Shown here piece by piece: positions 3,960 to 33,068 of a DNA stretch of 64,000 bases. Numbering within the stretch: the stretch's first letter is position 1; every line of letters begins with the position of its first letter. The notes beneath the pieces were generated by a model. That model was given only the letters and a program-made list of their open reading frames with translations. It was not told the origin of the DNA and ran no database searches. The stretch is from Dactylonectria macrodidyma (Eukaryota; Ascomycota; Sordariomycetes; Hypocreales; Nectriaceae). The stretch is from the NCBI GenBank assembly GCA_020744425.1, contig JAGMUV010000014.1:1426001-1490000 (forward strand), read 5' to 3'. The translations under genes and the position numbers were made by a program.

Positions 3960-6900
3960 ATGCATTCTTCTGAAACCAAGATGAGATCCTGCAGAGTGAT
4001 CCTGTTCGGGGATTTGTCCGTTGCATTCGAGGACAATCTCCGGGCGCTCCTGCACGTCCGAGACAACCCTCTGCTGTCTTCGTTCCTCGAGCAGGTTGGT
4101 GCCAGGATCCGAGACGAGATCGGCGGTCTCGGTACCCAAAGGCAACTCCTATTTCCTCACTTCACGACGCTCATCGACCTTGTTTCTAAACTGGGCGAGA
4201 CGGAGGGTACACATGTCCTCAGGTTCTGTCTTTTGTCTATTTGTCAAGTCGGGCAGTTTCTTGAGTATGCTCATCTATCCCTTCAAGCTAGATACATACC
4301 CTAACATTCATCTAGTTACTTCAGTCGGAATGGCCGACAGTATCCAACACCGCAAGACACATATTGCCTTGGCATATGCGCAGGATCCTTTGCTGCAGCC
4401 GCCATCAGCTGTTCTCGATCACTTACTGAGCTGATCGATACAGCTATTAAAGCGGTGATCGTTGCCTTTCGAACGTCGCTTTGTTCTTTGATTATTGGTA
4501 ATGATATTAGTAATGAGAAAACCCTTCAGACCTGGTCTGCTGTTGTGTCTGGAGACACGACCAGCTTGCAGCAGAAGATCCAAGACTACGCATTTTCAGA
4601 GGTGAGTATCTATCCAGCGCGATGCCATCTTCGAGCACTAACATCCACAGCATCTCCATCAACCATGGATACCATACATCAGCGCAGTCACTCCTCCTCA
4701 CCTCACCCTCACGGGTCCGCCCAGTTCGCTCTCAGCTTTTATCTCTGCGACGAAACTTATAAGCCACAAGCTGAACGTCAACTCACCGTATCATGCCGCC
4801 CACCTTTTCGACGACCTTGCGGTGGAGAAGATCGTCGACAGTCAATCTTGGGACCATCTCGAAGCCAAAACTGGATTCTTAACAACGTTGTCCCCCTCAA
4901 CTGGTCAGCTCGACACTACGGGCAACTTTGGCACACTGTTGAGATCTGCAGTTCAGGACAGTTTGCGTGAGCAAATCCGATGGGACCGCATTATACCCAC
5001 CATCACCGAGTTATTCCTCTCCAATGACCTCCAGCACTGCAACCTCATTCCCGTTAGTACCAATGCGGCTCAACTCTTATCTAGTGCCTTGTGCCGCGCA
5101 AACATTGAAGTGCAGGTGGAAGAATTTTTTTTACCTTCCAAAGAGTCTCCTCCCCAACATGGCCACTTCTCAGACTCCAAGATTGCAATCATCGGATACT
5201 CTGGCAGGTTCCCCGAGTCTGCATCCAACGAAGAGTTCTGGGATTTGTTGAAGGCAGGCAGGGATGTGCATCGCGAAGTTCCCGAAGACCGCTTCAATTG
5301 GAGGACTCATTACGATCCGACCGGGAAGACAAAAAATACCAGTCGCGTAAAGTATGGATGCTGGATTAAGGAACCCGGGGTCTTTGATGCCCGCTTCTTC
5401 AATATTTCTCCACGAGAGGCGGAGAATACGGACCCTGCTCAGAGACTTGCCATCACAACAGTCTATGAAGCAATGGAAATGGCTGGCATGGTGCCTAACC
5501 GAACGCCATCTACCCAGCAAGACCGCATTGGCGTCTTCTTTGGCACCACAAGTGACGACTGGAGAGAGGTCAACAGTGGCCAAGACGTGGACACTTATTT
5601 CATCCCTGGTGGGAATCGAGCCTTTGTACCTGGAAGAATCAGGTGAGTGGGTGCCTTTGATACGGGGAATCGACGCTAACACTGCTATTCAGCTACTTTT
5701 TCCGATTTTCTGGTCCAAGTCTGAGTATGGACACGGCTTGTTCTTCTAGTTCCGCCGCTATCCAGACTGCCTGCGCCTACCTTTGGAGAGGGGAATGCGA
5801 CACGGCCGTGGCGGGTGGCACTAATATCCTCACCAACCCAGACAACTTTGTGGGACTAGACAGAGGCCATTTCTTGTCTACTACGGGCAAGTATGGGGTG
5901 ATTCCAAGGTGAATAAGACTGACAGAAATTTTAGGTAATTGCAACGCGTTTGACGATGGGGCTAGTGGCTACTGTAGAGCAGACGCAGTTGGGTCTGTCA
6001 TTCTCAAACGACTTGAGGATGCTGAAAGGGACAATGATCCTATATTTGGCATCATCTCTGGGGCAACTACAAATCACTGCGGCCAGACAGACAGCATCAC
6101 ACGGCCTCATGAAGGTGATCAGACTTCAGTATTCAAGCGCATCATTCGACATGCTGGCGTCAACGCCCTAGACATCAGCTATGTTGAGATGCACGGCACA
6201 GGAACTCAAGCTGGCGACGCAACAGAAATGAACTCGGTGCTCTCCGTGTTTGTGCCTGAGCGTCAGCGAATGCCAAACCACCCTCTCTATCTTGGCTCAG
6301 CAAAGGCAAACATAGGACACTCTGAATCTGCGTCTGGCGTGTCGTCGCTCATCAAAGTCCTCATGATGATGAAACATAGTGAGATTCCGCCGCACTGTGG
6401 CATCAAGACCAAGATTAACCACAACTACCCCCTCAACTTGAAAGAGAGAAACGTCAACATTGCCTTTAAGCCGACGCCGTGGTTGCGAGAGGATACGCCG
6501 TGCGGCAAGCGGTTTGCGTTCCTGAACAACTTCAGCGCCGCAGGGGGGAACACGGCGGTTCTTCTGGAAGATGCTCCTCTTCGAGACGCTGAGCCACTCA
6601 ACGATCCTCGGACCTTTCATCTTGTCACAGTGTCTTCGAAGACTGCAAAGTCACTTAAAGGCAATATAGAATCTCTCATCACTCACTTAGAGGCTCATAC
6701 AGAGATTTCAGCTTCTGACCTGTCCTACACAACTACTGCAAGGCGGACACAGCACCCATATCGAGTTGTTGCTATCGGAACTGATGCATCCTCTATTGCC
6801 GAATCTTTGAGATCGAAATTGGCTACGATTGAGCCAAAGACAATTCCACCAGCTGCGAGGGTCCCAAATGTGGCATTCATGTTCACTGGGCAAGGGTCGT

Positions 6901-9900
6901 TCTATTGTGGGCTCGGTAAGGAATTGTATAGGCTTTTGTCCTCTTTCAGGGAAGACATTGATCGATTCAACAACATTTCCCTACAACATCAGTTCCCAAG
7001 CATTCTGGATGTCATTCAGAACAGTGAGTTGGCAGATACCCAAGACCCTGTCGTCACGCAACTTGCAATCGCCTGCACGCAGATGGCACTGAGCCGACTG
7101 TGGGTGTCATGGGGAGTCAAACCCAGCCTTACGATCGGACACAGTCTTGGAGAATATGCTGCGCTCTTTGCTGCGGATGTCTTATCGGCCAACGATACTA
7201 TTTTTTTGGTCGGCACTCGAGCCCAATTGCTGAAGAAGCACTGCAAGCCCGGCACGCACTCTATGCTTGCTGTCAAAGCCCTCGTGGACCAAGTAAACCC
7301 GTTGATTGCGAACTTCGACAGTGACATCGCGTGCATAAATCAGCCGACTGGGACTGTCGTGAGCGGGCCAGTGGAGGATATTGAGCGCCTCAAAGACATA
7401 TTCGAGGATGCTGGACACAAGACCACCTTTCTTGGCGTGCCTTTCGCCTTTCATTCATCACAGGTGGGTCCGATACTGGAGGAATTTGAATCCGCAACAC
7501 GGCAGGTGAAGTTTCGAACTCCATCAGTTCCTTATGTCTCGCCCTTGCTTTGCGAGGTCCTGTCTGAGAAAAACCCCGTGGATCATTCGTACCTGGTCAA
7601 GGCATGTCGACAAGTCGTCAACTTTCAAGGTGCTCTCGAAGAGGCGACCACAGCTGGTATTGTCACTGATAAGACCATATGGCTCGAGATCGGATCGCAC
7701 CCTGCTTGTTCGGGGATGGTGAAGGGGACATTGGGTAGCAAATCCAACACGGCGGCGACTTTGCGCAAAGACACCGACACGTGGAGGGTTTTAACCACAA
7801 CTCTCGAGATGCTTTACCTCAGTGGCATTGAGATAGATTGGAATGAGTACCACAGAGACTTTGAGCAATTCAACAGCGTTGTGGAACTTCCACGGTACAG
7901 CTGGGATCTGAAGAACTATTGGATCATGTACCGCAACGACTTTTGCTTGACCAAGGGCGAGGGGACACAGCCGGTTCAGCATACGCCCATCAAAGCGTCC
8001 CCAGCTTACAAGTATATCTCTCCGTCTCTGCAGCGGGTCATTGAAGAATCGCACGAAAATGGCCAATCGGCTCTCCTGGTTGAGTCAGACGTCCACGACA
8101 GCAGACTTTCGCCAATATTTACTGGCCACAGAGTGAATGGGGCGGAATTATGTCCCTCGGTACGCATTTGAGCCCAAGAATTACTATTCAGATGTGCAAC
8201 TAACACGGAGCTAGTCATTGTGGGGAGACATTGCGTTGAATATCACCACTTACTTGATGGAGCAGCAATCAATGCCCACGGAGGACATGGGGATGGATGT
8301 ATGCTGCATGCGGATCCAGAAACCGTTGGTACTCAACGTCAACATGCAAACACAACGATTCAGAATCTCGGCTGTCGCCAACTGGGCTGAGAACTGTGTC
8401 AAGGTTGCCATCTTCAGCGTCAACGACCAAGGTTCCAAGCTTATAGACCACGCAACATGCAGTGTTGAGCTGGTGCCGGTGCAAACTTGGACGAAGGAGT
8501 GGAACCGAAGCGCGTATCTCGTTCTAAGCAGAATTGAGGACCTACGCCGCGCGGCTAACGAGGGAAATACCCACCGCTTGAAGAAAGACATCGTCTACAG
8601 GCTTTTTTCCAACATTGTTGACTATAGCCCTCAGTATCAAGGCATGCGGGAAGTCATCATGGACAGCAAACAGCTCGAAGCAGTGTCGACGGTGCAGTTC
8701 CAGGTCGATGATCAAGGATTCTACTTCAACCCCCAATGGATGGACAGTGTGGGCGGGGTTGCTGGCTTCATCATGAATGGCAACGACAGCCCACACCCCA
8801 AGGCAGAAGTGTTCATCAACCATGGATGGGACAACATGAAATGCACCGCCAGACTACAACAGGGTAAGACTTATCACTGCTATAACAGGATGCAGCTGTT
8901 CGAAGGTGCCTGGTATACAGGCGACACGTACATTTTCGACGGGGGTGAGATTGTTGCTATCATCCAACAAATCAAGGTGAGCGAGTTATCCCTGAATCTC
9001 CAAGACTCTGAACTAATTTAATTAGTTTCTGGGTGTTTTACGCAAAGCCTTGGATGGCTTGCGCCCGGTCGGTCCCAGTGTAGCTCAAAGAACCACGACA
9101 GCAAGTACTACAACCGCATCAACGAAACCGGGGCAGCCAACAGCACGACCGACGAAAGAGACCAATGTTCCACCACCCAAATTGTTGAATCCAGTCCTGG
9201 AAGCTTCGGGGAGAGTCTGGCTCGCCATTATTGTCATCATTGCCGAGGAAGTTTGCCTTGACATCAAGGATCTGAATCCCGACACCGAGTTCGCTGACTT
9301 GGGTCTGGACTCTCTCCTCTCGTTGACAATCACTAGCCGCATACGCGAAGAGTTAGATCTGGACCTTCCATCATCGATATTCGTGGAGTGCCCCACAGTA
9401 AAGGATCTTCAGAAACTTCACGGAAACAGCGGTGGCGAGCTGTCTGTCACCAACACCGATTGTTCCAGCACGGGAAGAGAGACGGGCACTTCGACGCCAG
9501 ATACGTCCCTCACATCTGAGAGAGGAAATCTGGATTACATCCAGATATTGCGGTCCGTCATTTCTGAAGAGACCGGTATCAAGGAAAAAGACCTTTCTCC
9601 AACTACTCGTCTTGATGAAATTGGCGTCGACTCGCTTCTCGCCCTCACGACCATGGGAAGACTGAGTGAGACATTGGAAATGGAGCTACCATCATCCCTC
9701 TTTTCCGAAAGCGAGACTTTGCTCGAGGTGGAAGAGGGAATCACTGCAGCCTTGGGTGTCGACGTGAAGCCGTTTGCACCTTTCACAGCACCGGTGATCC
9801 AGCAACCAAGAATCTCAGAAGATGCAGTTGTGCGAAACGAACCACACTCAACGTCAGTGTTGCTTCAAGGTTCCCCAAAGACGGCCGCCTCTGTTGTCTT

Positions 9901-10639
9901 TATGTTTCCTGATGGCTCAGGCTCGGCGTCCTCTTATGCTACGTTGTCAAGAATGGGGCCGAACGTGGCAGTGTACGGTCTCAATTGCCCTTGGCGTACT
10001 ACTCCCCAAGAGATGGCTCGATCCAAATGCAGCCTCAGCCAACTCTCAGCGAAGTTTATCAATGAACTTCAACGACGACAGCCAAAGGGACCTTACCATC
10101 TGGGGGGATGGAGCGCTGGAGGTATCTGTGCCTTTGAAGCCGCTAGGCAACTTGTCGCAGGTGGGGAGGTTGTGGAATCCCTCATCCTGTTCGACTCCCC
10201 CAACCCAATCGGCCTACAAAACCCACCTGCACGCATGTACGATTTTTTCCAGCAGTTGGGCATCTTTGGCACAGGTGCAGGGATCCCGAACTGGCTGCGC
10301 CCGCACTTTGACGCCTTCATCGGCATGCTGGATGACTACGAGCCGGTCCCATGGCCACAGACCCTGGGTCAGGCCCCAAAGACGCTCATGGTGTATGCTG
10401 CAGACGGCGTTTGCAAAGATCCCAATGGCCCGAGACCGGAGATCCGACCTGACGATCCGCGAGAGATGATTTGGCTGATCAACAATCGCACCGATTTCAC
10501 GGCTGATGGCTGGGCATCGCTCATTGGACGAGATAGGCTGAGGGTTGAGGTTCTTGAAGGTGTCCATCACTTCAGCATGATGGAACCCGGGCCTCAGATG
10601 GACAAGATGGGTGAGCATATGAGAGATTTTTTGGCCTGA
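3960..10639 (+). CDS. Non-reducing polyketide synthase, SAT-KS-MAT-PT-ACP-ACP-TE
   Basis: Seven exons (3960-4264, 4316-4601, 4651-5642, 5693-5886, 5935-8159, 8215-8976, 9026-10639) encode 2125 residues. Domains in order: starter-unit acyltransferase, about 10-350, with Cys123 in GICAGS and His245 in PYHAAH; ketosynthase, about 374-800, with Cys544 in DTACSSS, His679 in HGTGTQ and His721 in NIGHSES; malonyl transferase, about 905-1220, with Ser996 in GHSLGEYA; product template, about 1285-1590, with His1324 in GHRVNG and Asp1511 in WMDSVGG; two acyl carrier domains with phosphopantetheine serines near 1684 and 1791; and a C-terminal thioesterase/Claisen cyclase with Ser1951 in GWSAGG and a distal His near 2103. 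All catalytic residues are present. The layout matches wA/melanin-type synthases making aromatic polyketides such as pigments. The neighbouring EthD gene suggests a pigment-type cluster. The product is not predictable here. The fourth intron has a GC donor. Confidence 0.95.
5887..5934 (+). other. GC-AG intron inside the ketosynthase domain
   Basis: The donor is GCAAGT and the acceptor TTTTAG (48 nt). Using it joins ...STTG to NCNAFDDG in the conserved ketosynthase sequence. The only nearby GT donor (5891) and the one at 5911 both lead to an in-frame stop or a wrong frame after the acceptor. Confidence 0.85.
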
Positions 10640-10983: not shown

Positions 10984-13050
10984 TCAAAGAAGGACAAATT
11001 CGTTAGGATTCTCGTTCCACCACCGCCCATGAGGATGTGGACTCTTCAAAGGGTCTTTTTCCGTCTTTCCAAACACCTCTCTAGGAGACTCGCCATACAT
11101 CCATCCGTCGAGATAGCATTGGCAGATGGCTTCGTATTCATCTTCACGATCCCCTACCTTTCTCAAGACAACAGGTGCCTTTGACCCATGCAGGATAGCC
11201 ACGACATCTCCCTCCTTGGCCGCCTTGCTAACCAACCCCAGCTGGAGATGCTCGGTGAAAAAAATGTTCTTGTGTTGCGCAATCAGCACCAAATCTTCCA
11301 ACCGCTCATAGTTCGATATCAGTTGCTCTTGCTCATCCGTCAAGCTTGTACGATCGTGCCGCCACTTCCTGATGTCGTCTCCACTCTTCATAGCTTGCAC
11401 GAATTTGTCAATTCTTCGAACACGTTCGGATCCAAGTGCACCATCCGCGATCAAAGTCCGCATCAAATCCCTTTCCATGTTGCTCTTCTTGATATCCAGG
11501 TAGTTCCCTAGCCGTTTCCAGACCTCGGGCGTATACAGGTGCCGGGTAGCATCCTGTAAGGTGCAAGCCCAGCTGAGGAAAGATGAGACACTGAGGCCTT
11601 TTAAAGAATTCGTTTGGAATAGAGAATACACCGTCTTGATTGCGTCGATGATCTTCCCCGTCACACGAAGTTTGCGTGGATTCTCGGCTTGGCGCCATTC
11701 ATGGGCAATGCTTCGGCAGGCATTGAAGCGAGAAAGTGGCGTGGCGATTGGACGACCATAGGGAAAGCAGTTTGACCAGTCTGGGACCCAAGATGGCCGG
11801 CCTTCTGAGATATCCCTCCCCCCAGACAAAGCCGCAAATATGTCGAGGCTTCCAGATGCTTCAATAATCCGCTGCGATGCCATTCTCCAGACATCCGACA
11901 CAGCATCTTGGTACGCAGACCCACTCGAAACGATGCCTTGGCCTTGTTGGAAGGCAAGAAAGGCAAAGATTCGGTCCCTTTGGTCACCACACTCCACTCT
12001 CCTCAATACCTGAAGCAGTTTACAAAGGAAAATCTGGTTGTGTGGCTGAGATTGAGACTCTCGTCGAGTGTGTGCAATGAGCTTCATCATCTCATAGCCG
12101 GGCGTCGAGGTCGCGAGGTTCCCCATCCAATTCTCTTGATGAAGGCCAAGTTCAATCTGGGCTCGGTGTATAGCATCACAGACATTCTTCAAGTCATCAA
12201 AACTCATCTCGGCACTTCCAAACTGAACACATAGCCGCTTGGCAAGACTGGCTTCCTGGAACACCCACGCTCTCTGGAACCACGGGCGGGATAGCAACTC
12301 GTATACGGCCCTCAGCCTTCTCATCTTGACGTTTTCGAAGTGATAAGTAGGACGAAAGTCAATTAGACTCGTCACACGCCCCACTAAATCCGCTATTTGA
12401 GATGTCGATGCGAGTTCTCTGATCAAATCGAGCAGGTGACTTGAGTCAGCTTCATAGACAGTATCGATAGAATTGGTGACAAGCCGCGTGAAATCCTCTC
12501 CCAAGTAAATAATCGTACAACTTGCAGATCTGTAAATGTTCCCCATAAGCTGCACTTGGGAACCTCTTTCTTCCACATTCTCCTGGTCGATGCAAAGCTG
12601 ATCTATCCATAGAAGCCGAGGAGTAGATGGCAGCCTCAGCCGACGCAGGGCCATGAGTAGTTGCGGCGTAGCAAGGAGTGCCTCCTCAGTCTCGTTGCTA
12701 TCAGAGTCCGTCCCGAGAATCGATACAGGCAGATGCCGATCCATCTGGCCCCAGGTGTATGACAGCGCCTCATATTCCGGCGCTTCTAGAAGCCGGTGAA
12801 CTTCTATCCTGCATTCAATCGGCTCTTTGCTCTGTTCGGGACTCGAAGGCCCTTCTGCTGGTAGAAGTGATATGAGTCGGATCTGAGAATCGGCATCAAT
12901 TCGGGGATGTCTGAAGAGGGGTAACGCATCATCAGGGAGAACATGCGGCAAGTATGTCGTCGGCGCGGCTGACTGAGTCGTTTGGAAGTATTCGGGAAGT
13001 GTGGATTTCGTATAAAACCCATACACATCTTGATCCGCCATGTAGGACAT
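10984..13050 (-). CDS. HET-domain (heterokaryon incompatibility-type) protein
   Basis: A single uninterrupted frame of 688 residues. The HET domain begins at about residue 94 with EALSYTWG, followed by LLWIDQLCIDQ, the YRSASCTIIYLGED strand and RAWVFQEASLA near residue 265, the standard motif order of PF06985. HET domains act in fungal allorecognition and regulated cell death. The roughly 400-residue C-terminus matches no domain I recognise, as is usual for this family, whose effector or recognition parts vary. The gene converges on the polyketide synthase with 344 bp between stops and is probably unrelated to it. No ankyrin, TPR or WD repeats are visible. Confidence 0.9.
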   Translation of the reverse strand: MSYMADQDVYGFYTKSTLPEYFQTTQSAAPTTYLPHVLPDDALPLFRHPRIDADSQIRLISLLPAEGPSSPEQSKEPIECRIEVHRLLEAPEYEALSYTWGQMDRHLPVSILGTDSDSNETEEALLATPQLLMALRRLRLPSTPRLLWIDQLCIDQENVEERGSQVQLMGNIYRSASCTIIYLGEDFTRLVTNSIDTVYEADSSHLLDLIRELASTSQIADLVGRVTSLIDFRPTYHFENVKMRRLRAVYELLSRPWFQRAWVFQEASLAKRLCVQFGSAEMSFDDLKNVCDAIHRAQIELGLHQENWMGNLATSTPGYEMMKLIAHTRRESQSQPHNQIFLCKLLQVLRRVECGDQRDRIFAFLAFQQGQGIVSSGSAYQDAVSDVWRMASQRIIEASGSLDIFAALSGGRDISEGRPSWVPDWSNCFPYGRPIATPLSRFNACRSIAHEWRQAENPRKLRVTGKIIDAIKTVYSLFQTNSLKGLSVSSFLSWACTLQDATRHLYTPEVWKRLGNYLDIKKSNMERDLMRTLIADGALGSERVRRIDKFVQAMKSGDDIRKWRHDRTSLTDEQEQLISNYERLEDLVLIAQHKNIFFTEHLQLGLVSKAAKEGDVVAILHGSKAPVVLRKVGDREDEYEAICQCYLDGWMYGESPREVFGKTEKDPLKSPHPHGRWWNENPNEFVLL

Positions 13051-13875
13051 ATTGAGAAAGGTGAAGGTGGATACTCCAATCTAGAAATCAATGAGAAGAG
13101 TCCCGCTATGCTTTTGATTGCGAGGTCGACTAATAATGTGACGTCATTGTTACAACGAGCGCTAGAAGTGATCTAATTGCGCCACGCGCGTGGTTGATTC
13201 CTAGGCCAGGTTGTAGAAGTTCGATCAGTACGGGTCCAACCTACACAATGTCGCCCATGCAACATTGAGTTGGAAAAATGAGGAACCGAGGAATCTAGGC
13301 CACAAAGGTACCAAGGCTCATTCTTAAGCATCCTTTTGCCTTGTTCTCTATTTTCATCGTCGTGGCGTGATGTTTCGAAGCCTGAGGCTGTTACCACATG
13401 GTGATCTCAACCCCGATTTACATGAGAGCCATGGTAATGACACAGAGGAGAAAATTGGGTCTTAAATCAGTTGGCAGACTTCGTCTCTTAAGTACCTACG
13501 TCTTATGATGAAGCTCGGGTATAAGTTTCTGCAAGACCTGTTCCAGGGTAGCGCCGTCGAACCCGAAAAGCTTGTCGAGGTGGCATTCCCGGACATAACG
13601 TACCGCTACCCTTTGGACGAGCCTATAGGGGTTCTGAAAGGGTCTGCTTATAATACCCACTTGCGCAACGGCTTGAGTTTGAACCATTGAAGGGGGCTTA
13701 GGGCAATTCTTCACACAATTTGAGATTGTCGATAAGGCAAGGCTATGAAAAAAAGGAGCTAGTGCTATATTGACATAATGGGATACTTGTACGCGCAACC
13801 TTGATGAAACTTAGCGGTCTTATTTGAACAGCAATGATTTTCGCTTCCCATGCCAGGCTGCTAGGCACCGTTTAC
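13051..13875. other. Intergenic region without a supported gene
   Basis: The sequence upstream of the HET gene and downstream of the FAD oxidoreductase gene contains only short frames on both strands (for example 13505-13690), none with a recognisable motif. Confidence 0.5.
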
Positions 13876-19876: not shown

Positions 19877-20936
19877 CTAGCGCAGGAAACTGATGGATTC
19901 CAGCTGCTTTGAATCGCCGAGGCCAACACTAACGTCCTTGAACTCTTCCAGATCCTTCTTGATATTCTCGAGGTCCGCGAACAGCATACCCCAGGCGTCC
20001 GGTCCGAGAGGAACACGGATGGGCACTCGCGTTCCGCGACTGACAACAGTGTACATGGCTGCCGCGAGATCCTTGGGCTCTGTCCAAGTACTCCGCCCTT
20101 GCTCACTCATCATGTAGCCTAGGACGGCGTTGGTGGGGGAGCTGGGATCCGAGTACGCTGGATGGCGCTTTTCCATCATCTTCAAGGAAGAGGTGGCGTA
20201 GTTGGTCTTGACACCACCGGGTTCGATGACGGACAGATGAACTAGTAGTGCACATATGTCAGGAATTGGTATTGGGATATCGAATACCGTACTGCATAAA
20301 TGGCCGATACTTACTGTTCCATGCACTTGGCAATTCCTTGGCCACGGACTCAGTCCACCCTTCCATGGCGAACTTGCTAGCATGGTAGAATGACTGTCCC
20401 GGGAAACCGGTCCAGCCGCCGAGGGAGCTGACGTTCAAAATGACGCCACCCTGCTGGCCACTCTTGGGGTTCTCGTCCCTCATGATGCCGAGGGCCTTCT
20501 TGGTGATATCTACCATGCCCCAGAAGTTGGTGTCCATGACGGCACGAGCCTCTGCGTCTCCGGCGCCTTCGGTATCACCGGCGAGCGTGTAACCCGCATT
20601 GTTTACGACAACGTCAATGCGACCCCACTGCTTGAGCGTAGCGGCGAGCGCAGCCTCAATAGAGGCGTTGGAGGACACGTCGAGCTTCAGCTTGAGGACG
20701 TTGTCGCCGTCTGGGATCTCCGTAAGTGACGCAGGGTTTCGGGCAGTGGCGGCGATGCGATTGGTGGTTTCGGCGATGAGTTGAGCCAGGGACTGTCCAA
20801 TGCCAGAAGAACAGCCGGATACTGTATATGTGAGCGTTAACGAGGCGTGTAATGAGATGCAATTGCAGGGGGGAACCCTACCGAACCAAACTGCATCGGA
20901 TGGGAGGTTATAGGGCTTGGTGTTGGGGGCTTCCAT
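19877..20936 (-). CDS. Classical short-chain dehydrogenase/reductase
   Basis: Three exons (20882-20936, 20315-20821, 19877-20241) encode 308 residues. The cofactor motif SGCSSGIG, a variant of TGxxxGIG, sits at about residues 20-27 and is completed only after splicing the first 60-nt intron. NNAG follows near residue 95, and the catalytic triad comes from NVSS and YHASK at about 145-163. The C-terminal half (IEPGGVKTNYA) is typical of the family with a WF-V-x-GCSSG start, which reduces or oxidises lipophilic or secondary-metabolite ketones and alcohols with NAD(P)H. The substrate is unknown. It lies 1.65 kb from the dehydratase of the anhydrofructose locus on the same strand, with a P450 relic between, so a pathway link is only a possibility. 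Confidence 0.9.
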
Positions 20937-21530
20937 GATGAATGCTTGGTGATGAATGCTGGGTAATAATAGATGCTAGCTGGTTGAATGGATGCTTTGT
21001 AGATATGTCTGGATCCGAACCACTTTGGTGCGATCTCAGGCCTTTTATGGGATTTACAAATAATTCCATCTACCTCTCCCCATGTCCCTTTCCCCATGAC
21101 GTACGAATAGTGTCGGAGATACACATTTTGAGTGCATAAAATCCTATAAGAGACGTGAGGCTACGGAGACAACTTAAGCCTCTAGGATTTAGCGGATGCT
21201 GTCGGAGGTCCATGTTAAGTCCGGCAAGCCGCATAAAACCTAATGAACGCGTCCTCTGGGGCTACTAAGTATCGGTCCGTTAAGCTGTATGCAGTCTAGC
21301 GGGATATGGCGTCGGAAATGATGCTTACTCTCTTGGCATAATAGCTCTGCGCTCCTCATTTGTTATCATTCAGCGCCATCGAGGCGGAGCCGAAGTGACA
21401 CAAAGCTGACTCGCTTCGCTCGACCGCCACCATTCGCTCAGTCAGCAATGGTGTTGGACGAAGAGGCATTGTGAAACAATAAGATGGGATCCCATTTCGC
21501 AAGAATTTACCTGTGTATCACCTCGCTCCC

Positions 21531-22588: not shown

Positions 22589-25539
22589 TCACAAATCCTG
22601 ATCGGGGTTGAACTCAATGGCAAGCCAGACATCGACATCGGGCCCGCTGCCGGCCTGCCACTTGTGCCAGGGGTACGAGACGACGTTGTTCTTGCCGCGG
22701 ATCGACTTGGAGTAAGAGTCGCGGTACCAAAGGCCTCCGTGTTCATAAAGGCGAGGAAGAGTTACATGCTGGAAGGACTGGTCGCCGCTCTCGGCCACCT
22801 TGCATGGGCCCGGAGCTGTGGGCGTCTCGAGGAGGCGAGACATGCCGCCGTCACGGGTGCCAGCAGAGAGGCAGATGTGAAGCTCCTCGAAGATATCGCC
22901 GCTGTGGTTGTGCAGTCCGCAGTCAACGTTGGTTCCTGATATAGTTATTAGTGATGCTCTCCGTGAAGATGTTCTGCTCATGTGGCAAAGCACCGGGAGC
23001 GAACGCCACGTAACGTACCAGCAGTCCAGAACTGGATGTGCGCAATCTGCGACTTGTCGTCCATGAAGCGGAAGTAGAAGCCTGAAAGGTTGTAGAAGTC
23101 CTTGCCCTTGAAGTCCCCACCCCACCAGAGGTCCTCGACCTTGCGGAACTTGAGCTCCGGCGCCTCGAGGCCAAGCTTGCTCGTGTCCATGGTCATCCTC
23201 ACGGGGACATCCTCAGCTCTCTGCCACTCGCTAGGCTCGCCGAGCGGGAGCAGGCGAAGTACGATGGCGCCCTTTTGCTCGTCTGCCGTGAAGATGTTCT
23301 CCTGGCTGGTGACAGGAGTAATGGAAGGGAAGGGGGCGGACCCAAGAGGTCGGCGCTTGCTGCTGTTGTCCGAGATGGACCCGTAGAGGACCTTGATGCC
23401 CTCGCCCTGCTGCAGGGTAATCTTGTCACCCTTGGGGTAGATCTCGACGCTGACTGCGTAGCCGGCAACTTCAATGAGATTCATGCGATGGGCAGCCTTG
23501 ACCTCATTGGGGCGGGTGAGATAGACCATGCCTTCATCGTCCCAGACGGTGGGAACGATTGGGGCCGCCGAAGGGGCCTCGCTAGCCGTGACCGTCTTAT
23601 TCAGGTGGAGAGTCGTGACTGGCTTGGGCTCCTCGTAGTAGAGCGCCACGTTGTAACCGATGGAAATGAGGTCGAGCTTCCCAGCTCCGCCAAAGTTGCT
23701 ACGGGTAGTGTTAGAGGGACAGAGATATCACTTTGGTGGCGGGAGTGAGCTCACCCAACGGCAATGCGAGCCGACGACTCTTCGGCGATCCTCCACTTGG
23801 CAAACAGGCCCCGTTCGATGTCAATGGCCTTGTAATACATGATGCCCTAGTGTCAGGTCAGTACATGATTCTGATGATGTTACTTTTGATACAAGTTGGC
23901 TGGGTTACCTTGTTGGGGTTGCGACCAGGTTTCGGCTAGGTAGGACACTGTCAGTATTACATATGGTGAAGGTGAAGTGGGCAACGAACCGGGATAGAGT
24001 TGTCCTTATCATCTCGGTCCAAGGGGCCAAAGAGGGCGAGGAGGAACTCGTCATCTCCGTCTCCTATGACACAGTTAGAAACTTCTGTAAACGGCAACAA
24101 TGACATGGTACGGCTTGCCATCGAAGTCACCACACACAATGTAGTGGCCTGGTCCGTCTCCCGTCTTCTGGAGCTGGTTCGGAGTTCCGTACACGTCGAG
24201 AATGTGCCTCTTCCACTCGGCATTCTTCATTCCTCGACTCGTCTTGGTGTAGACGCAGGCGGCAATGCCGTGGAAGGGATCAAGAGTAGCGATGTAGGCG
24301 AACGGGTCGTCGCCAAGCTTGCCGACGTCGGCACACCCAGTGCCCCAATGATCGCCAGAGCCAGGTGACTCGGAAGTGGGAGATTGTCTAGCTTCCTTGG
24401 GCTCGCCGATGCCGATGAGCTCACGCTTCCAGGCACCATCTTCATAGTACAGCCAAGTGGTTCCCTCTCGCGAAGAAATGAGCATGGAATCAAGGCCATC
24501 GGGGCCATTGAATCTGATAATACTGTCAGGAATCGATATCATGTGTTTCTTAGAACAGCTCGACTTACTTCTTTTGGGTAACTTCGTGGATGACAGTGAA
24601 GTTCTCGTCATCAATGACTTCACGCTGCCACTCGGTCCTAGAGAGACTTAGAGAAAGTAATAAATTGACAGAGAGGACTTGCTTACGCCTCCAATACGTT
24701 CTCCGGCGCCTGGAAGCGGATAATCGGGATGGGAGTTGTCTGATGCATTGTTAGGCTCACATAACGGATCAATGGAACACGGACAGACCTTGTCATGCTC
24801 GCCGTAGACGACAGACGCGGCAACAACTTCGAGGAAGGACCTGCTACTGTTAACCTTTGTCCGCGGTGGATTCGATATCGCGGCAGCCAGCTCACTTTTG
24901 GGTAAAGTGTCCTGCCTTCATGCGGTGCATGGCGGGCCATCTACCGATCTTGCGCTCCTTCCAGTGGCCATCGCCCAGCTTGTCGCGGCCGGGGTTCTCG
25001 AGCCAACTGACCCAGCCTCCTTGCATGTTGCATTGGAGCATGAACGGGCCGTAGTCGTGGCAGATGACCAAGTCCATCAGGCCGTTCTTTGTAATGTCGC
25101 AAGCCACCACCGCGACGGGAGAGTCGAATGTTCCGATAGTGTACTTCTTCCAAGCTGGGCCGCATGATTAGAATTCAGCACGAAGATCCTGCCTAACACT
25201 GGCATAGGAAAGGAATGCTCACGCGAAGTGACATCAGCGGTGGTCTGCCCGCTAGTGGTGCCGTCCTTGTTAGCGGCTCGGGCCGCTGCGATAGGGTTGT
25301 CTATGAACTCAATGATGCCCGAGACCAGGCCCGATCTAGTCCGGAGTCAGCGGATGCCCCTGGGTATGACAGCGAACTTACGTGATAATGCCGGGGACAG
25401 GGTCTTTCTCGCTGAAGTGGAAGGTTTCGACCCAGTATCCATCTTTGCGCTGGTCTTCGATGACATCGCTGCCGAATAATGGGACAGCCACATCATCGGG
25501 CGCACTGGCAGTGTCGGTGGTCTTTGCGGGAAGTTGCAT
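22589..25539 (-). CDS. Aldos-2-ulose / 1,5-anhydro-D-fructose dehydratase
   Basis: Twelve exons encode 775 residues: 25382-25539, 25223-25335, 24896-25154, 24789-24840, 24687-24739, 24569-24637, 24119-24522, 23990-24063, 23909-23935, 23755-23846, 23019-23698 and 22589-22935. The product resembles Phanerochaete aldos-2-ulose dehydratase/isomerase throughout: RKDGYWVETF near the N-terminus, DITKNGLMDLVI, GGWVSWLENPG, MHRMKAGHFT, ADVGKLGDDPFAYI, EWKRHILDVYG and DGDDEFLLAL in the beta-propeller half. HIQFWTAG, a cupin motif HNHSGDIFEELH and YPWHKWQAG follow in the metal-binding half. Family enzymes dehydrate 1,5-anhydrofructose to ascopyrone M and isomerise it to microthecin, or convert glucosone to cortalcerone. 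The C-terminal lectin-like domain of the ~900-residue basidiomycete enzyme is absent. There is no signal peptide, so it is probably cytosolic. The gene is divergent from the glucan lyase, which makes the substrate. The acceptor of intron 6 could be 9 nt further downstream; intron 7 has a GC donor. Confidence 0.9.
24064..24118 (-). other. GC-AG intron in the dehydratase gene
   Basis: On the minus strand the donor is GCAAGC, with a TTCTAAC branch-type sequence and a CATAG acceptor (55 nt). It restores DFDGDGDDEF, the conserved propeller calcium-binding-like loop. GT donors nearby give the wrong frame. Confidence 0.8.
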
Positions 25540-25638
25540 GTTGAGCTTTGTGACGTTGTATGATAGGTGAGAGTGGTAGCAATTAATGTGCTTGTGCTGT
25601 AGATAGGGAGAGAGAAGCATCAGGGGGGTTTTCTGCGT

Positions 25639-25645
25639 TTATATA
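25639..25645 (-). promoter_or_regulatory. TATA box of the dehydratase gene
   Basis: TATATAA on the minus strand, 100 bp upstream of the ATG at 25539. Confidence 0.6.
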
Positions 25646-26599
25646 ATTATCACACAGTACAGTGCAATAGTGTCTGCTGCCGACCGGCCGAGGCATGTGT
25701 CTACAGACTTGAAAGACATTTGCAACACTCTGACATGTTCGTATGATGCTCATTTGCGTCTACGTGTTATCTTACGCTCGGCATTCCTCAACATCTTACC
25801 AAGTCAGCCGCTCCTGAATGCCGATACGACACCGCATGCAGTCGGATCAGGTATGCCTCCTCAGCGAGAATGGCATGTAAATGTCCTAGAAACAGTCATA
25901 TGCTTTGCAGCGGCATATCTGAGGAAGCCATATGGACCCATGGCTTGAAGGCAATCATGCTGGACCTATGGGTGTTTTCGTTCTCCTATGCTTCACCGAC
26001 GAATGCGTGGACATGTCCCTTTGGCCAATTGGGACTCACGGGCGAGAGTCAACATTGAAGATCATTGCCCAAAGGACACAGCGGCACACATTGGGCGCTC
26101 AAAGGCGAAATTGTGTTTGGTTTTGATGCCCGGCAGCGACTCCGATTCATCACAAGGCCAGATATTCAAGCTTCCGCAACCTTACAAGGGCGGAATAGAA
26201 GTCTCACTGTGGATGCGAGGCTAATAAGACTTCTTAGTGGACGGAACTCGCGAGGGTGCCGACAAGCCCTGCTTAGGGGCTGCAGGCGGACTATTCGGGC
26301 CTGTGGCTGACGCATCCGCACATTGAGGATAGACACGCAAATATGTGACAGGCTGGCAATTTCTCAATGTTACAGTGCACATCACTGTGGCTTGGGAGAA
26401 ATGAATGCGTTGTCAAAAGCGGAGAGCTGCTTCGTGTGTAACATTTCCCCCTCACTTTTGGAATGAGAGACCTTCCCGTCATTCCATCCCCAGATTTCCC
26501 CCGCTTGTTCTATGCAACGCTTGACAGCCAAGGTCGGTATGCTGACTTGAAGGAATCGACGTCTCGTCTTTGTCGTGAAAGGTGTGACGGCGAAATAGA

Positions 26600-26605
26600 T
26601 ATAAG
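26600..26605 (+). promoter_or_regulatory. TATA box of the glucan lyase gene
   Basis: TATAAG within a GATATAAGAGCC context, about 95 bp upstream of the ATG at 26699. A C/A-rich leader with CTCACT repeats follows, usual for highly expressed fungal genes. Confidence 0.6.
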
Positions 26606-26698
26606 AGCCGCCCTTTCGACAGAAATTTGCTCGAATCAAACACTCTCACTCTCACTCACCCTTCCCTACAACACCAACCAATACAACAACAACTCACC

Positions 26699-29600
26699 AT
26701 GGGCGGCTACGAAGACATCAAGCTCCGAGACCCCTACATCTTCATCAAGGCCGATGATTTCTTCCAGGGCCTCGACAACCCCAACGCCGGCGATGTCAAG
26801 CAGCCCGCCACCATCTCCTACAAGCCGGATGACCAGCTGCTGGCGGATGGCAGCAAGAATCCAGCTTGCAGCCATGGAAACGTCTTTCGCTTCAATGACG
26901 GTTCGCTCCTCCTGATTCAGTTCATGAGGCCTCGGGTTTGGAGGATTCGCTTTGACCCCAACAACGACAAAGGGTCTGACTTCACCGACTTCAACACGTA
27001 AGTCCTCCAAGAAAGTTTCACAGTCGAGCAGGATAGCTGACGCGTATTGTTTCAGTCGAACCATCATCCAGGATACTCTCAGCCAGCTCATCACCACCCT
27101 GGATGCTGCCGAAGAACTCAAGTGGGCTGTTGAGCTCATCGAGGACCCGATGTACTACATCCTGCAGTCCGTCACGAATCCCGACACGCCACAGAGAAAG
27201 GTCGAAGTCCAGCTCTGGGTGCAGAGGGACCCCTTCCAGATCACGGCTGTCCGCGTCCTGCAGAGCCAGGGCCCGGCGGAACAAGTGCCCGTCCAGCAGA
27301 GCCTGGACGTCAGCACCATTGACAAGCTGAGCCTTGTGACGCAGAAGGGTGCCGAAGCTGCCATTATCTGGAAGACGAAGCCTAGGGGTCTCCAGTATAG
27401 AGGCAACGCGACCATCCTCTCCATTGAGAAGTCGGTAACAGCTGATTACATGGGCTTTGGTGAACAAGGAGGAAAGAATCTCTTCAAGAAGAAGACATAC
27501 ATGAACTACTTCAGTAGGTGATTCATCGAACAACAACACCCGTTACTAATGGCTTTAGACTTTGACAACATGAGGTATCAGAATGTCTATGGCAAGGGAC
27601 CGCTAGATGACCGCGAGCCCCTGTACCATTCCGAGCCGTTCTGGGTCGAGGTTGACTCGCACCCTGGATACAGATCCCAGACCGCCACTTTCATCGACAA
27701 TTACTCGCACATTTGCCTCGATGTTGGCATGAAGGATGAGAACTCCATCAGAATGGCGACCCGGTTCAACAGCTTCCACTGTATCGTCACCGCCGGCGAT
27801 AGCATGCAGGAGCTCATCCAGCTGTACACTTCGGTTGTCGGCAAGCCCAGGCTCAAGCCCAGATATGTTCTAGGCTACCATCAAGGTATGTAACTGCTCA
27901 AGTCACGCATATGGTTGCTAATTTTCCAAGGTTGCTATGGCTATGACAACCAGGAGATGGTGGTTGAGGCTGTTGACGAGTACCGGAAGGTCAACTTTCC
28001 CATCGACGGCATGCATGTCGACGTAGACATGCAAGACGACTATCGGACCTTTACTATTGACAAGAGAGACAAGCACTTTCCCGATCCGGTCAACATGTTC
28101 AAGACACTCAGGGAGAAGGGCATTAAATGTTCTACCAACATCACGCCCTACATCAACAACATTGATAACCCCAACTACACCACCCTCAACGAAGGACTGC
28201 AGAATGGATACTTTCTTGAGGACGAGCGAGACATAGACCCTTCCGCTCCTCACGCTCACGAAGTGCGCTATCTTGAGTACGGCACTGGCTCAACGTACTT
28301 CCAGGCACCCTCCCGAGACAAGCCCGACTACTTTGAGAAGGATGAATACGACTTTGCGCAGGTGTACAACACGAAGAAGCCCTTCCACGGAGGCGTTTAC
28401 TACGGCTGGGGAAATGGACACCCTGGACATTATCCGCGTCTCAACAATAAGGAGGTCCGACTTTGGTGGGGGAAGCAATATCAGTATCTCTTCGAGTGTG
28501 GCCTTGACTTTGTCTGGCAGGACATGACGTCGCCCTGCATCGCGGAGCAGTATGGCGACATGAAGTCGTACGTCATCTATGTGAACCTTCACATCAGGCC
28601 TCAACATCTAGTGCTAATCAACTCATAGTATCCCCTTCCGACTCCTGATGGAGTCAGATGGCTGGTCCGGTAACCCCAAGGGCGAGGAGAAGAAGAAGGC
28701 TATTGAGATTTGGTCGTTGTACAGCTACAACCTGCACAAAGCCACGTTCCACGGCCTTGAGAACATCTCCAAGCTCAGCCCCGAGCTCAAGTGGCGCGAA
28801 AACCGGCGCAACTTCATCATTGGCAGGGGAAGCTTCGTCGGCAGCCATCGCTACGCCGGTCTCTGGACGGGCGACAATGCCTCAACCTGGGACTTCCTTG
28901 ACATCTCCGTGGCGCAGGTGCTCGCCCTCGGCATGTCCGGTATCACCATCTCCGGACAGGATGTAGGCGGATTCGAGTTCATCGATTCCGAGCGCGCCTA
29001 CGCTAACCCAGAGCTCATCATCCGATGGTACTGCGCGTATTCGCTTCTTCCGTGGTTCCGGTAAGACCCCTCTGCCTCATGACCCTCTGTCGTATATGAT
29101 GACCTCGTCCCTATCATAATCAACTGACCATGCCCAGCAACCATTACACCAAGAGGCGCAACTGGGTAGACGGACCCCGAGAGAATACAATGCGAAAGGA
29201 CGGCAAGGACTTCCAGGAGCCCTACGCCTACCAGCAGCACTATGAGCAGAATGCAGATAAGTACCACGGCAGAGAGGCTACCATCTACCGCGCCGTGCTT
29301 CCGGTGTGCCGATACTACGTTCGCCTCCGCTACAGCCTGATGCAGCTCTTGTATGATGCCATGTTTGAGAACATCATCACTGGACTGCCCATTGCCCGAG
29401 CCATGGTAAGTTTGTTTTGTGGAAGGTTTTGATAAACCAGAGATGGCCTCTTCTCTGCACATATTCCTTTATACTTGTCCACACCGGCTGGAATCTCGTA
29501 CAGTAACTCAAACTCACTCCTTGACAGGTCATCACCGATGATGTTGACAGAACTCTCTTCTCTGCCGATGTAAGTCATCCCTCCATAGACATGCATACAT

Positions 29601-30614
29601 GGCAAAGGCAATATCTAACCAATGCAGAATCAACGCTTCACCCGCAGCCAGTACATGGTCCGAAACGACCTCCTCGTCGCGCCGGCTCTGCTGCCCGAGA
29701 GCAAGCGCCAGACTCGCAAGCTCTACCTCCCCTACGCCAGCCGCTGGTATTCCATGAACCTGCGCCCCGACGAGCCCATCGGAGCCGCCCTCTCGCCCGC
29801 CGTGGAAGGTGGAAGCCGGATTGAGTACAACTGCCTCATCAGCGATCAGGACTCCCAGCTCCCGTACATCACTCCCATGTACATCCGCGAGGGTAAGTAC
29901 TACGCCATCCGCATTTATATACATGTAGCTCGCTAACACACACGCACAGGTGCCATCATTCCCAAGATCCAGGTCAGGGACTACATCCCAGATCCCTCGC
30001 TTCCCGCGCAGGACCCCAACCCAATTACTCTCCACGTCTATCCCGGAAGAACCGGCGTAAGCATCTCAAGACTCCCTATACCCCCAAGACGCGTGGCTAA
30101 CAGCCGACAGTCCTACAGCATGTACCTTGACGATGGAATCTCCCGCGAGAGCGCCCCGTCCTCGCACGTCCCCGACTTCGACTGCGATTTTGGCCAGGTG
30201 AATCACGTCACTGGCGACTGCAAGGCTGCTGACAAGTACTGCCATGTGCTCATTGAGCAGGTTAGTTGACTAACAAGAGCCTCGAATGTTCTGGTCGTAC
30301 TAATCTGGATGCTATAGAAGACCTCCAAGGTCGTCGCCGAGGGTGGTCCCGTTGGCCACGTCCGCAACGTTACCATCAAGACTCCTTGGAACGGATACGG
30401 GGACTTGTCGGCCATCATTGGCACCCAATACACGGTTGTCTTTTGGCACGACCCCGCCACGACGCTCAGCTCCGTCAAGGTCTCGTCGTCCAACCCCAAT
30501 GTCTCTTCCAGCACAAATGTTGGATACAAGGCCACCATCGTCACTCTTCCCGTTGCTGATGCTCACACTGAGGATGGAGTGACTATCCAACTGACGCACG
30601 ACAACGTCAACTGA
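26699..30614 (+). CDS. Alpha-1,4-glucan lyase (GH31)
   Basis: Eleven exons encode 1093 residues: 26699-26997, 27056-27513, 27559-27885, 27931-28567, 28629-29060, 29138-29405, 29528-29569, 29628-29892, 29950-30056, 30111-30260 and 30318-30614. This is close to the ~1066 residues of Morchella lyases. The GH31 barrel carries the nucleophile motif as VWQDMTSP (Asp559). Lyases have WQDMT here, whereas glucosidases have WIDMNE. The acid/base motif is LWTGDNASTW (Asp656), and LGMSGITISGQDVGGF follows. The enzyme removes non-reducing-end glucose from starch or glycogen as 1,5-anhydro-D-fructose by elimination instead of hydrolysis. There is no signal peptide, so it acts inside the cell, probably on glycogen. 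The divergent neighbour encodes the dehydratase family that consumes anhydrofructose. The start is set by MGGYEDIKLRDPY after a TATA box; an upstream in-frame ATG at 26627 would add 24 low-complexity residues. Confidence 0.93.
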
Positions 30615-31602: not shown

Positions 31603-32853
31603 TTAGTTCTCAGGGTGGTACTTACCATCATCATAAGGGGTACCCTCGCCCTCGTACTTGCCAGGGCACCAAGTTCCATCATCCTCTCTCTTGGCCTTCT
31701 CCTCGGGGTGGTACTTTCCATCATCGTAAGGGGTGCCCTCGCCCTCGTACTTGCCGGGGTACCACTTTCCATCATCCGATCGCTTCACCTTCTCCTCGGG
31801 GTGGTACTGTCCATCGTCGTAGGGAGTACCCTCACCCTCATACTTTCCAGGGTACCATTTGCCATCATCCTCCCTCTTGACTGGCTCAGTGGGGTGGTAC
31901 TGTCCATCGTCGTAGGGAGTGCCCTCACCCTCATACTTTCCAGGGTGGTACTTCCCGTCATCGTAAGGAGTATCATCACCCTCGTACTTTCCAGGGTACC
32001 ACTTTCCGTCATCGTTCCGCTTCACCTTATCCTCAGGGTGGTACTGTCCATCGTCGTAGGGAGTGCCCTCACCCTCATATTTACCAGGGTACCACTTTCC
32101 ATCGTCCTCCCTCTTAGCTGGCTCGGTGGGGTGGTACTTTCCATCATCATATGGAGTGCCCTCTCCCTCGTACTTTCCAGGGTACCACTTCCCATCGTCT
32201 TCGCGCTTGGTGTTGGCGTCGGTGGGGTGGTACTTTCCATCGTCATAAGGAGTTCCCTCGCCCTCGTACTTGCCGGGGTACCATTTGCCATCATCAGATC
32301 GCTTAGCCTTTGCGGGCTCAGTAGGATGGTACTTTCCATCGTCGTAAGGAGTACCCTCACCCTCGTACTTTCCAGGGTACCACTTGCCATCGTCGTATCG
32401 CTTGGCCTTAGCCGGCTCAGTAGGGTGGTACTTTCCATCATCGTACGGAGTGCCCTCTCCCTCATATTTGCCGGGGTACCACTTTCCGTCATCAGATCGC
32501 TTGGCCTTGTCGTTCTCCGTTGGGTGCCACTTCCCGTCATCGTAAGGGGTGCCTTCACCCTCGTACTTTCCAGGATACCACTTTCCATCGTCCTCACGCT
32601 TGGCCTTGTTGGCGTCGGTAGGGTGCCACTTTCCGTCATCGTAGGGAGTGCCCTCGCCCTCGTACTTTCCGGGGTACCACTTTCCGTCGTCTTCCCTCTT
32701 AGCCGGCTCAGTGGGGTGCCATTTGCCGTCGTCGAAAGGGGTACCTTCGCCCTCGTACTTGCCGGGTGCCCAAGAGCCGTCGTCGGCAGCCTTGGGGGTA
32801 GGGAGAGCCAGAACCGTGACGGCGAAGGCGAGAAGAGTGAATGAGTAACGCAT
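31603..32853 (-). CDS. Secreted Kex2-processed repeat protein (RiPP-precursor-like)
   Basis: An intronless gene of 416 residues. An N-terminal signal peptide (about residues 1-16, LLAFAVTVLA) precedes 12 tandem units of about 31-33 residues from residue 24. Each unit reads roughly DDGKWYPGKYEGEGTPYDDG then K/Q, Y/W and HP, plus a variable spacer ending in Lys-Arg. The Lys-Arg pairs are standard Kex2 sites, so the precursor would be cut into about a dozen near-identical Trp/Tyr-rich peptides. This is the design of fungal Kex2-processed repetitive proteins, which include ustiloxin/phomopsin-type cyclic-peptide precursors, pheromone precursors and surface peptides such as Ustilago Rep1. No UstY-type (DUF3328) oxidase, tyrosinase or methyltransferase gene lies nearby, so a cyclic-peptide product is not supported. 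Alpha-pheromone identity is unlikely because the unit lacks the short W-C...C-W type core. A TATA box lies 217 bp upstream. Confidence 0.88.
   Translation of the reverse strand: MRYSFTLLAFAVTVLALPTPKAADDGSWAPGKYEGEGTPFDDGKWHPTEPAKREDDGKWYPGKYEGEGTPYDDGKWHPTDANKAKREDDGKWYPGKYEGEGTPYDDGKWHPTENDKAKRSDDGKWYPGKYEGEGTPYDDGKYHPTEPAKAKRYDDGKWYPGKYEGEGTPYDDGKYHPTEPAKAKRSDDGKWYPGKYEGEGTPYDDGKYHPTDANTKREDDGKWYPGKYEGEGTPYDDGKYHPTEPAKREDDGKWYPGKYEGEGTPYDDGQYHPEDKVKRNDDGKWYPGKYEGDDTPYDDGKYHPGKYEGEGTPYDDGQYHPTEPVKREDDGKWYPGKYEGEGTPYDDGQYHPEEKVKRSDDGKWYPGKYEGEGTPYDDGKYHPEEKAKREDDGTWCPGKYEGEGTPYDDGKYHPEN
31606..32784 (-). repeat. Coding tandem repeat array, about 12.5 units of 93-99 bp
   Basis: The units encode almost identical peptides, but their third codon positions vary: the Gly-Lys-Trp-Tyr-Pro stretch is spelled several ways, and the first bases of spacers differ. 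Unit 9 contains an extra half unit (HPGKYEGEGTPYDDGQ) without a Lys-Arg in front of it. Unit 12, the C-terminal one, has TWCPGK in place of KWYPGK and no terminal Lys-Arg. Confidence 0.9.
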
Positions 32854-33068
32854 TGTGTGAGGTTGTGCTTGAATGACCTAGGAAATAGTAGGAAAATGAA
32901 AAAGGAAAATCGAAGAAGATTGGTTGATCAAGTTGTGCTGTGCTTGGTGGATTAGATAGCGATTGTGAGAGAGTTGCTGGTGTTGAGTAAGAGTGTTGAT
33001 GAGAAGACTCAGAAGATGTTGATGATGGTGATGATAAAAACAATTCCAGATGTTGAGGCCATTGGCAT

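Follow-up and report, generated by a model that had tools for sequence, protein, structure and literature searches.

Gene pair at the locus

The 64,000-nucleotide stretch of fungal DNA analysed here (the window) carries two genes arranged head to head, one for an aldos-2-ulose dehydratase/isomerase (AUDH) and the other for an alpha-1,4-glucan lyase-type protein of family GH31, with start codons 1,159 bp apart. The observation of the pair is confirmed: the divergent arrangement that the first-pass annotation placed at 22589..30614 was borne out, with the AUDH stop and the lyase stop as its ends. Introns of both gene models were picked by hand from splice signals and homology, and one in the AUDH model (24118-24064) is of the GC-AG type. 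In the features below, lyase residues are aligned to the Gracilariopsis structure 2x2h and cupin motifs are matched to the AUDH of Phanerochaete chrysosporium (PcAUDH).

22589..25539, minus strand: AUDH gene; 12 exons, ATG at 25539, stop at 22589, 772 aa, complete, one uninterrupted frame
22664..22675, minus strand: cupin motif YPWH (residues 745-748), matching PcAUDH 706-709
22877..22912, minus strand: cupin motif HNHSGDIFEELH (H666-H677), matching the PcAUDH HNH at 630; probable metal ligands
25540..26698, no strand: divergent intergenic region, 1,159 bp
26699..30614, plus strand: alpha-1,4-glucan lyase-type GH31 gene; 11 exons, ATG at 26699, stop at 30614, 1,093 aa, one uninterrupted spliced frame
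28137..28139, plus strand: Asn codon of TNIT, equivalent to lyase N459
28515..28532, plus strand: WQDMTS motif, with the catalytic nucleophile Asp equivalent to D553 of the Gracilariopsis lyase
28873..28875, plus strand: Asp codon of GDN, equivalent to D665

The glucan lyase-type protein

The best match of the GH31 protein in the PDB is the red-algal Gracilariopsis alpha-1,4-glucan lyase (2x2h, E=2.4e-52), and a protein of Dactylonectria macrodidyma matches it at 99% identity. In the HMMER alignment to 2x2h, in which chain position and published residue number differ by an offset of 11, the equivalents of D553, D665 and N459 are all conserved; passages of PMC12441222 describe D553 as the catalytic nucleophile and N459 as helping proton abstraction. 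The lyase-type motif WQDMT noted in the first-pass annotation is indeed present, as WQDMTS: Thr-Ser follows the nucleophile Asp-Met where hydrolases have Asn-Glu, so that the water-activating Glu is absent. In GH31 hydrolases this Asn-Glu stands after the nucleophile motif and the Glu activates water. Rozeboom et al. are said to have identified, in 2013, D665 as the acid catalyst and a Glu-to-Val change as the switch to lyase activity. Among the 120 GH31 relatives listed (the best 120 of 425), 113 carry WQDM[TA]xP, with S, T, G or Q at the place of the hydrolase Glu, the other 7 being ones that the pattern did not resolve. The hydrolase form, WNDMNE or WIDMNE, is seen in 2 other GH31 genes of the same genome, and was not found by the pattern used in 6 further ones.

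A tree of 29 proteins places the window protein in a fungal clade together with the Morchella lyase Q9UVZ1 (support 99/100), which we take to be biochemically characterised. The tree took 5 of the 8 other GH31 loci of the same genome (L004, L007 and L008, with open frames below 600 aa, were left out, and 2x2h was not included); all five fall outside the lyase clade with very great branch lengths (4.8-9.9), which means that the tree tells them apart from the lyases but gives no order among them. The protein groups with a lyase and not with these other GH31 proteins, and its assignment to the lyase type, made earlier from the motif, holds. The Morchella and Gracilariopsis lyases share with it the GH31 family and the WQDMT, TNIT and GDN motifs; identity to the Morchella enzyme is about 43%.

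The dehydratase/isomerase

The neighbour had been likened to the aldos-2-ulose dehydratase family, and this family assignment stands. Its sole PDB match at E<=0.001 is 4a7k, the Phanerochaete AUDH (E=5.5e-114), and it matches both Pfam families of such enzymes well above cut-off (PF22301 and PF18637; AUDH_Cupin at E=1.5e-106, AUDH_beta_propeller at E=2.1e-76). For both genes of the pair the sequence matches are far stronger than chance would give. The propeller is N-terminal, and described as seven-bladed in a passage of PMC8023676, and the cupins are C-terminal. The window genome shows one AUDH, and the window protein is 98% identical to a D. macrodidyma protein over 91% of its length. The 4a7k fold was recovered in a structure predicted for the near-identical protein P0001, which stands in for the window protein.

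PcAUDH (4a7k/4a7y/4a7z) has the same domain order, with 34% identity over 97% of the window query, and has the cupin motifs HNH...ExH and YPWH in common with the window protein. Of the 900-aa Phanerochaete enzyme, residues 16-731 are covered by the alignment and the last ~170 have no counterpart in the window protein, which, unlike that enzyme, is paired with a lyase gene. YPWH is invariant in 32 aligned bacterial cupins, and H-N-x-H...ExH is also conserved in bacterial stand-alone cupins; HNH...ExH and YPWH would be the metal-binding motifs of AUDH.

Proposed pathway

Taken together, the two genes quite probably constitute a compact anhydrofructose pathway, leading from glycogen via anhydrofructose and ascopyrone M to microthecin. 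We infer the enzyme activities, product, co-regulation and location as follows. The GH31 protein would attack glycogen or malto-oligosaccharides at their terminal alpha-1,4-glucosyl units and cleave these off by elimination, forming a covalent glucosyl-enzyme on the WQDM Asp; the same Asp would then take the C2 proton, with 1,5-anhydro-D-fructose as the product. The AUDH beta-propeller would dehydrate anhydrofructose to ascopyrone M, and the cupin part would rearrange ascopyrone M to microthecin. With dehydratase-type as well as isomerase-type domains present in AUDH, the two genes together could account for the entire route to microthecin. Neither predicted N-terminus resembles a signal peptide by eye, which makes intracellular glycogen the probable substrate, and the shared 1.16-kb divergent promoter probably co-regulates both genes. 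A shared promoter repeat was sought as well, and no direct or inverted repeat of at least 11 bp was found in the 1,159-bp intergenic region.

The closest known system is the anhydrofructose pathway of Anthracobia melaloma, which has the same substrate, intermediate and enzyme types, also in an ascomycete. It reportedly consists of lyase, anhydrofructose dehydratase and ascopyrone tautomerase, known as purified activities (work attributed to Yu et al. in 2004). In the window, by comparison, the genes are adjacent and the dehydratase and isomerase parts lie in one protein; judged by sequence, the end product of the window pair could be either ascopyrone P or microthecin.

Linkage and apparent joint inheritance in fungi

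Is the pairing found beyond this genome? At least 20 of 76 AUDH clusters share a contig with a lyase match, and these 20 lie in 19 genomes (Tricladium twice). A shared contig was defined by identical size of the AUDH and lyase contigs (all 76 AUDH contigs differ in size; 102 lyase matches were entered), and the count is a lower bound, as each cluster records one contig and the best 120 of 425 lyase matches were used; among those not entered no further shared contig was found. One of the linked clusters is from D. macrodidyma, probably the window's own species. The other genera are Fusarium, Thelonectria, Colletotrichum, Tricladium, Monosporascus, Cercophora, Macrophomina, Diplodia, Lepidopterella, Tuber, Choiromyces and Kalaharituber, and the linked genera belong to the Sordariomycetes, Leotiomycetes, Dothideomycetes and Pezizomycetes. 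Contig sharing is strong evidence only on small contigs: if one to three lyases were scattered randomly over a genome taken to be 40 Mb in size, 0.05 (one lyase) to 0.15 (three) linked clusters are expected on contigs of 20-200 kb, where 9 of 21 are linked, and 0.17-0.5 on contigs of 0.2-1 Mb, where 3 of 16 are. Locus tags are serial in three genomes (DL765_009768/009769, OQA88_11656/11655, SLS58_009886/009884); strict adjacency is seen in the window and, via locus tags, in two genomes. AUDH and lyase are linked beyond chance across genomes, and the pairing is not confined to this one.

Protein distances of lyase and AUDH correlate across the 20 linked pairs with r=0.85, against a highest value of 0.47 in 2000 label shuffles, which ignore shared species history. 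The two FastTree trees of these pairs have 12 of 17 splits in common. Among these are a group that joins one pair from Tricladium (Leotiomycetes) to Hypocreales and Monosporascus, supported locally at 0.93 and 1.00, and a group of the other Tricladium pair and Lepidopterella (Dothideomycetes; 0.85 in both trees). The AUDH-lyase pair seems to be inherited, or to travel, as a unit. Because these two groupings cut across fungal classes, species history alone is insufficient to account for them, and it is likely that both genes were transferred, or duplicated long ago, as one unit.

A split counterpart in bacteria

We scanned 84,980 GTDB species genomes with a lyase profile, requiring one of two exact peptide patterns, and obtained 57 loci; since one pattern contains WQDMT, this motif is not independent evidence in them. 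The denominator of 57 retains several loci cut by contig ends, two from one genome (L043 and L058), and some that may not be glucan lyases (L060-L067, with 25-43% identity, and the WQDMTD loci L047, L048, L056, L057 and L059). Propeller homologues were detected by tblastn at 14 of the 57 loci (L027 and L029 being short remnants and L017 cut by a contig end), and 12 were called as an open frame by profile; L052 ends just past the propeller. A separate cupin neighbour of ~240 residues is found at 34 loci, 29 strong and 5 distant (L060, L061, L064, L065 and L066; 370-400 residues where called). Profile and predicted-fold comparison match this family of 'hypothetical proteins', with 195 matches for the stand-alone form, to the C-terminal part of AUDH. 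Six of the bacterial proteins were compared with NCBIfam, and none received a name from it.

All three genes occur at nine loci (L012, L013, L014, L026, L034, L042, L046, L051 and L053), and all three parts also at L017 (cut) and L030, where the cupin frame was not called and the cupin lies within the 671-bp propeller-lyase gap, overlapping the called lyase start. The three-gene sets are all on one strand, with gaps of -29 to 276 bp, in these orders:

lyase-propeller-cupin: L012, L051, L053
propeller-cupin-lyase: L014, L026, L034, L042, L046 (with a SnoaL-like gene between propeller and cupin), L017
cupin-propeller-lyase: L013

The bacterial operons hold the same three adjacent parts as the fungal pair, but with AUDH split into a propeller of ~430 aa and a cupin of ~240 aa and with co-directional genes, whereas the fungal genes diverge. 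As the separate bacterial cupin matches the C-terminal part of AUDH by profile and predicted fold, the fungal enzyme is equivalent to two genes of the bacterial operon fused into one, next to the same lyase. The pairing is, judging from these sequences, no ascomycete peculiarity, since some bacteria carry the split version. A single metagenomic cluster, P0111, looks like a bacterial-type propeller-cupin fusion, and we do not rely on it.

Of the 34 cupin loci, 23 lack a propeller gene (counting L027 and L029, which have remnants), so the cupin is the lyase's more constant companion and may act on anhydrofructose directly. At L027 (9082-9162) and L029 (9069-9164) the short propeller remnants directly precede the cupin gene, which suggests that the dehydratase was lost while cupin and lyase stayed. 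We slightly favour a broader scheme, of a trans-domain anhydrofructose cluster: a lyase-dehydratase-cupin operon in bacteria (cyanobacteria, Paenibacillus, Bacteroidota, Vibrio and others), whose last two genes would be fused in fungal AUDH, the pair then having passed between fungal classes as a unit. The cupin would have its own undescribed anhydrofructose reaction, since many cyanobacteria have lyase and cupin and no propeller.

Propellers were also sampled on their own. Among 395 genomes of one phylum the centre genome gave a strong match and 4 others weak ones; among 386 of a second phylum the centre genome and genome G785 were strong and one match was weak, below cut-off. One genome of the cyanobacterial sample that has no lyase carries an AUDH propeller (L080:7009-8514); upstream lie genes for a GMC sugar dehydrogenase and for ferritin-like, SnoaL-like, pentapeptide-repeat and xylose-isomerase-like proteins. 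The remote GH31 loci L060-L066, in alphaproteobacteria and others, have WQDMT[TV]P[SAD], distant cupin relatives at 5 of 7, and aldo-keto reductase, SDR and DUF993 family genes in several; they perhaps represent another anhydro-sugar pathway.

Surroundings of the pair

A Pfam search of 20 of the window's open frames for a third pathway gene turned up none with a link to the pathway. The only frame near enough to be a candidate is a short-chain dehydrogenase beyond the AUDH 3' end, and the nearest recognised transporter, a sulfate permease ~6 kb downstream, has no evident link. The 424-aa open frame next to the lyase holds many repeats like DDGKWYPGKYEGEGTPYDDGKYHPTE with KR between units and, by eye, a putative signal peptide; it looks like a processed repeat-peptide precursor.

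4642-10636, plus strand: polyketide synthase in several frames, with SAT, ketoacyl synthase, acyl transferase, dehydratase, ACP and thioesterase domains
10987-13080, minus strand: HET-domain (heterokaryon incompatibility) protein
19880-20975, minus strand: short-chain dehydrogenase
31606-32877, minus strand: repeat-containing open frame

Alternative readings

How tightly do these data bind the two genes into one pathway? Several observations weigh against it. The residue after WQDMT is Ser in the window lyase and Val in 2x2h. None of the 12 AUDH clusters on contigs below 20 kb is linked, the 8 of 27 on contigs above 1 Mb (D. macrodidyma included) are uninformative alone at 2.2-6.5 expected, and 56 of the 76 clusters have no shared contig, in part owing to which matches were listed. 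In bacteria, 45 of the 57 lyase-type loci have no full propeller gene alongside, and whole-genome searches, which recovered 10 of 10 positive controls, found one elsewhere in 0 of the 22 genomes searched among these. Strict pairing is also broken by G785, which apart from the centre genomes is the one genome in the two phylum samples with a strong propeller and which has no lyase; ~5 kb before that propeller, on the same strand and with four called genes between, is a GMC protein whose closest relatives are glucose and fructose dehydrogenases, an arrangement reminiscent of the established role of AUDH on oxidised sugars. Finally, a pyranose-oxidase-like gene lies on contig 9 of the window genome (best exon E=4.9e-104, with no exon reaching the whole-protein cut-off), so glucosone could also feed AUDH.

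Phanerochaete AUDH is usually fed by pyranose oxidase, and PcAUDH accepts both glucosone and anhydrofructose. AUDH might thus serve mainly the pyranose oxidase route, from glucosone to cortalcerone, with the lyase as a neighbour with its own role, and G785 fits such a use. We consider this unlikely: the oxidase gene is on a different contig from AUDH, AUDH-lyase linkage and common tree splits recur in fungi, and the operon recurs in bacteria. That the genes are chance neighbours, paired by an accident of this genome, is barely credible. Nothing was found in its favour, the recurrence across fungi and bacteria and the common splits oppose it, and chance adjacency is rejected by the excess of shared fungal contigs at 20-200 kb. 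Compatible with the anhydrofructose pathway as far as the enzymes go is a third reading, in which their purpose is catabolic or regulatory, turning glycogen carbon into a sugar unusable by others or into an internal signal, and not into a secreted antimicrobial. This we hold as a tentative possibility of some weight. It agrees with the unlinked sulfate permease as nearest transporter, with the 23 propeller-less cupin loci in bacteria, where microthecin is not expected, and with carbon sequestration, suggested as a reason for such pathways in a passage of PMC12441222; however, AUDH is present in the window with both domains, and the same paper reports ascopyrone and microthecin as antibacterial.

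Significance

At the level of genes and families, the core interpretation as an anhydrofructose pathway is well supported. The earlier proposal is borne out in part: it holds for the enzyme identities, the divergent arrangement and a dedicated route, while an antimicrobial product is a possibility. The enzymes and the pathway are already known; what appears to be new is the conserved fungal linkage, the joint inheritance and the split bacterial counterpart. We found no description of the gene pair or the bacterial operon in the open PMC literature; prior notice in Yu 2004, Yu 2008, Claesson 2012 or Rozeboom 2013 is possible. The bacterial operons also point to glycogen-derived pyranones in cyanobacteria, for which the same literature yielded no description.

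Glycogen can be spent in an alternative manner through the anhydrofructose pathway, whose physiological role is unclear; with a pair this compact, deletion of one or two genes is enough to test it. In the bacterial operons each step is available in a small form that lacks introns. They also give the 'hypothetical protein' family of stand-alone cupins a likely function and suggest an origin for the bifunctional fungal enzyme.

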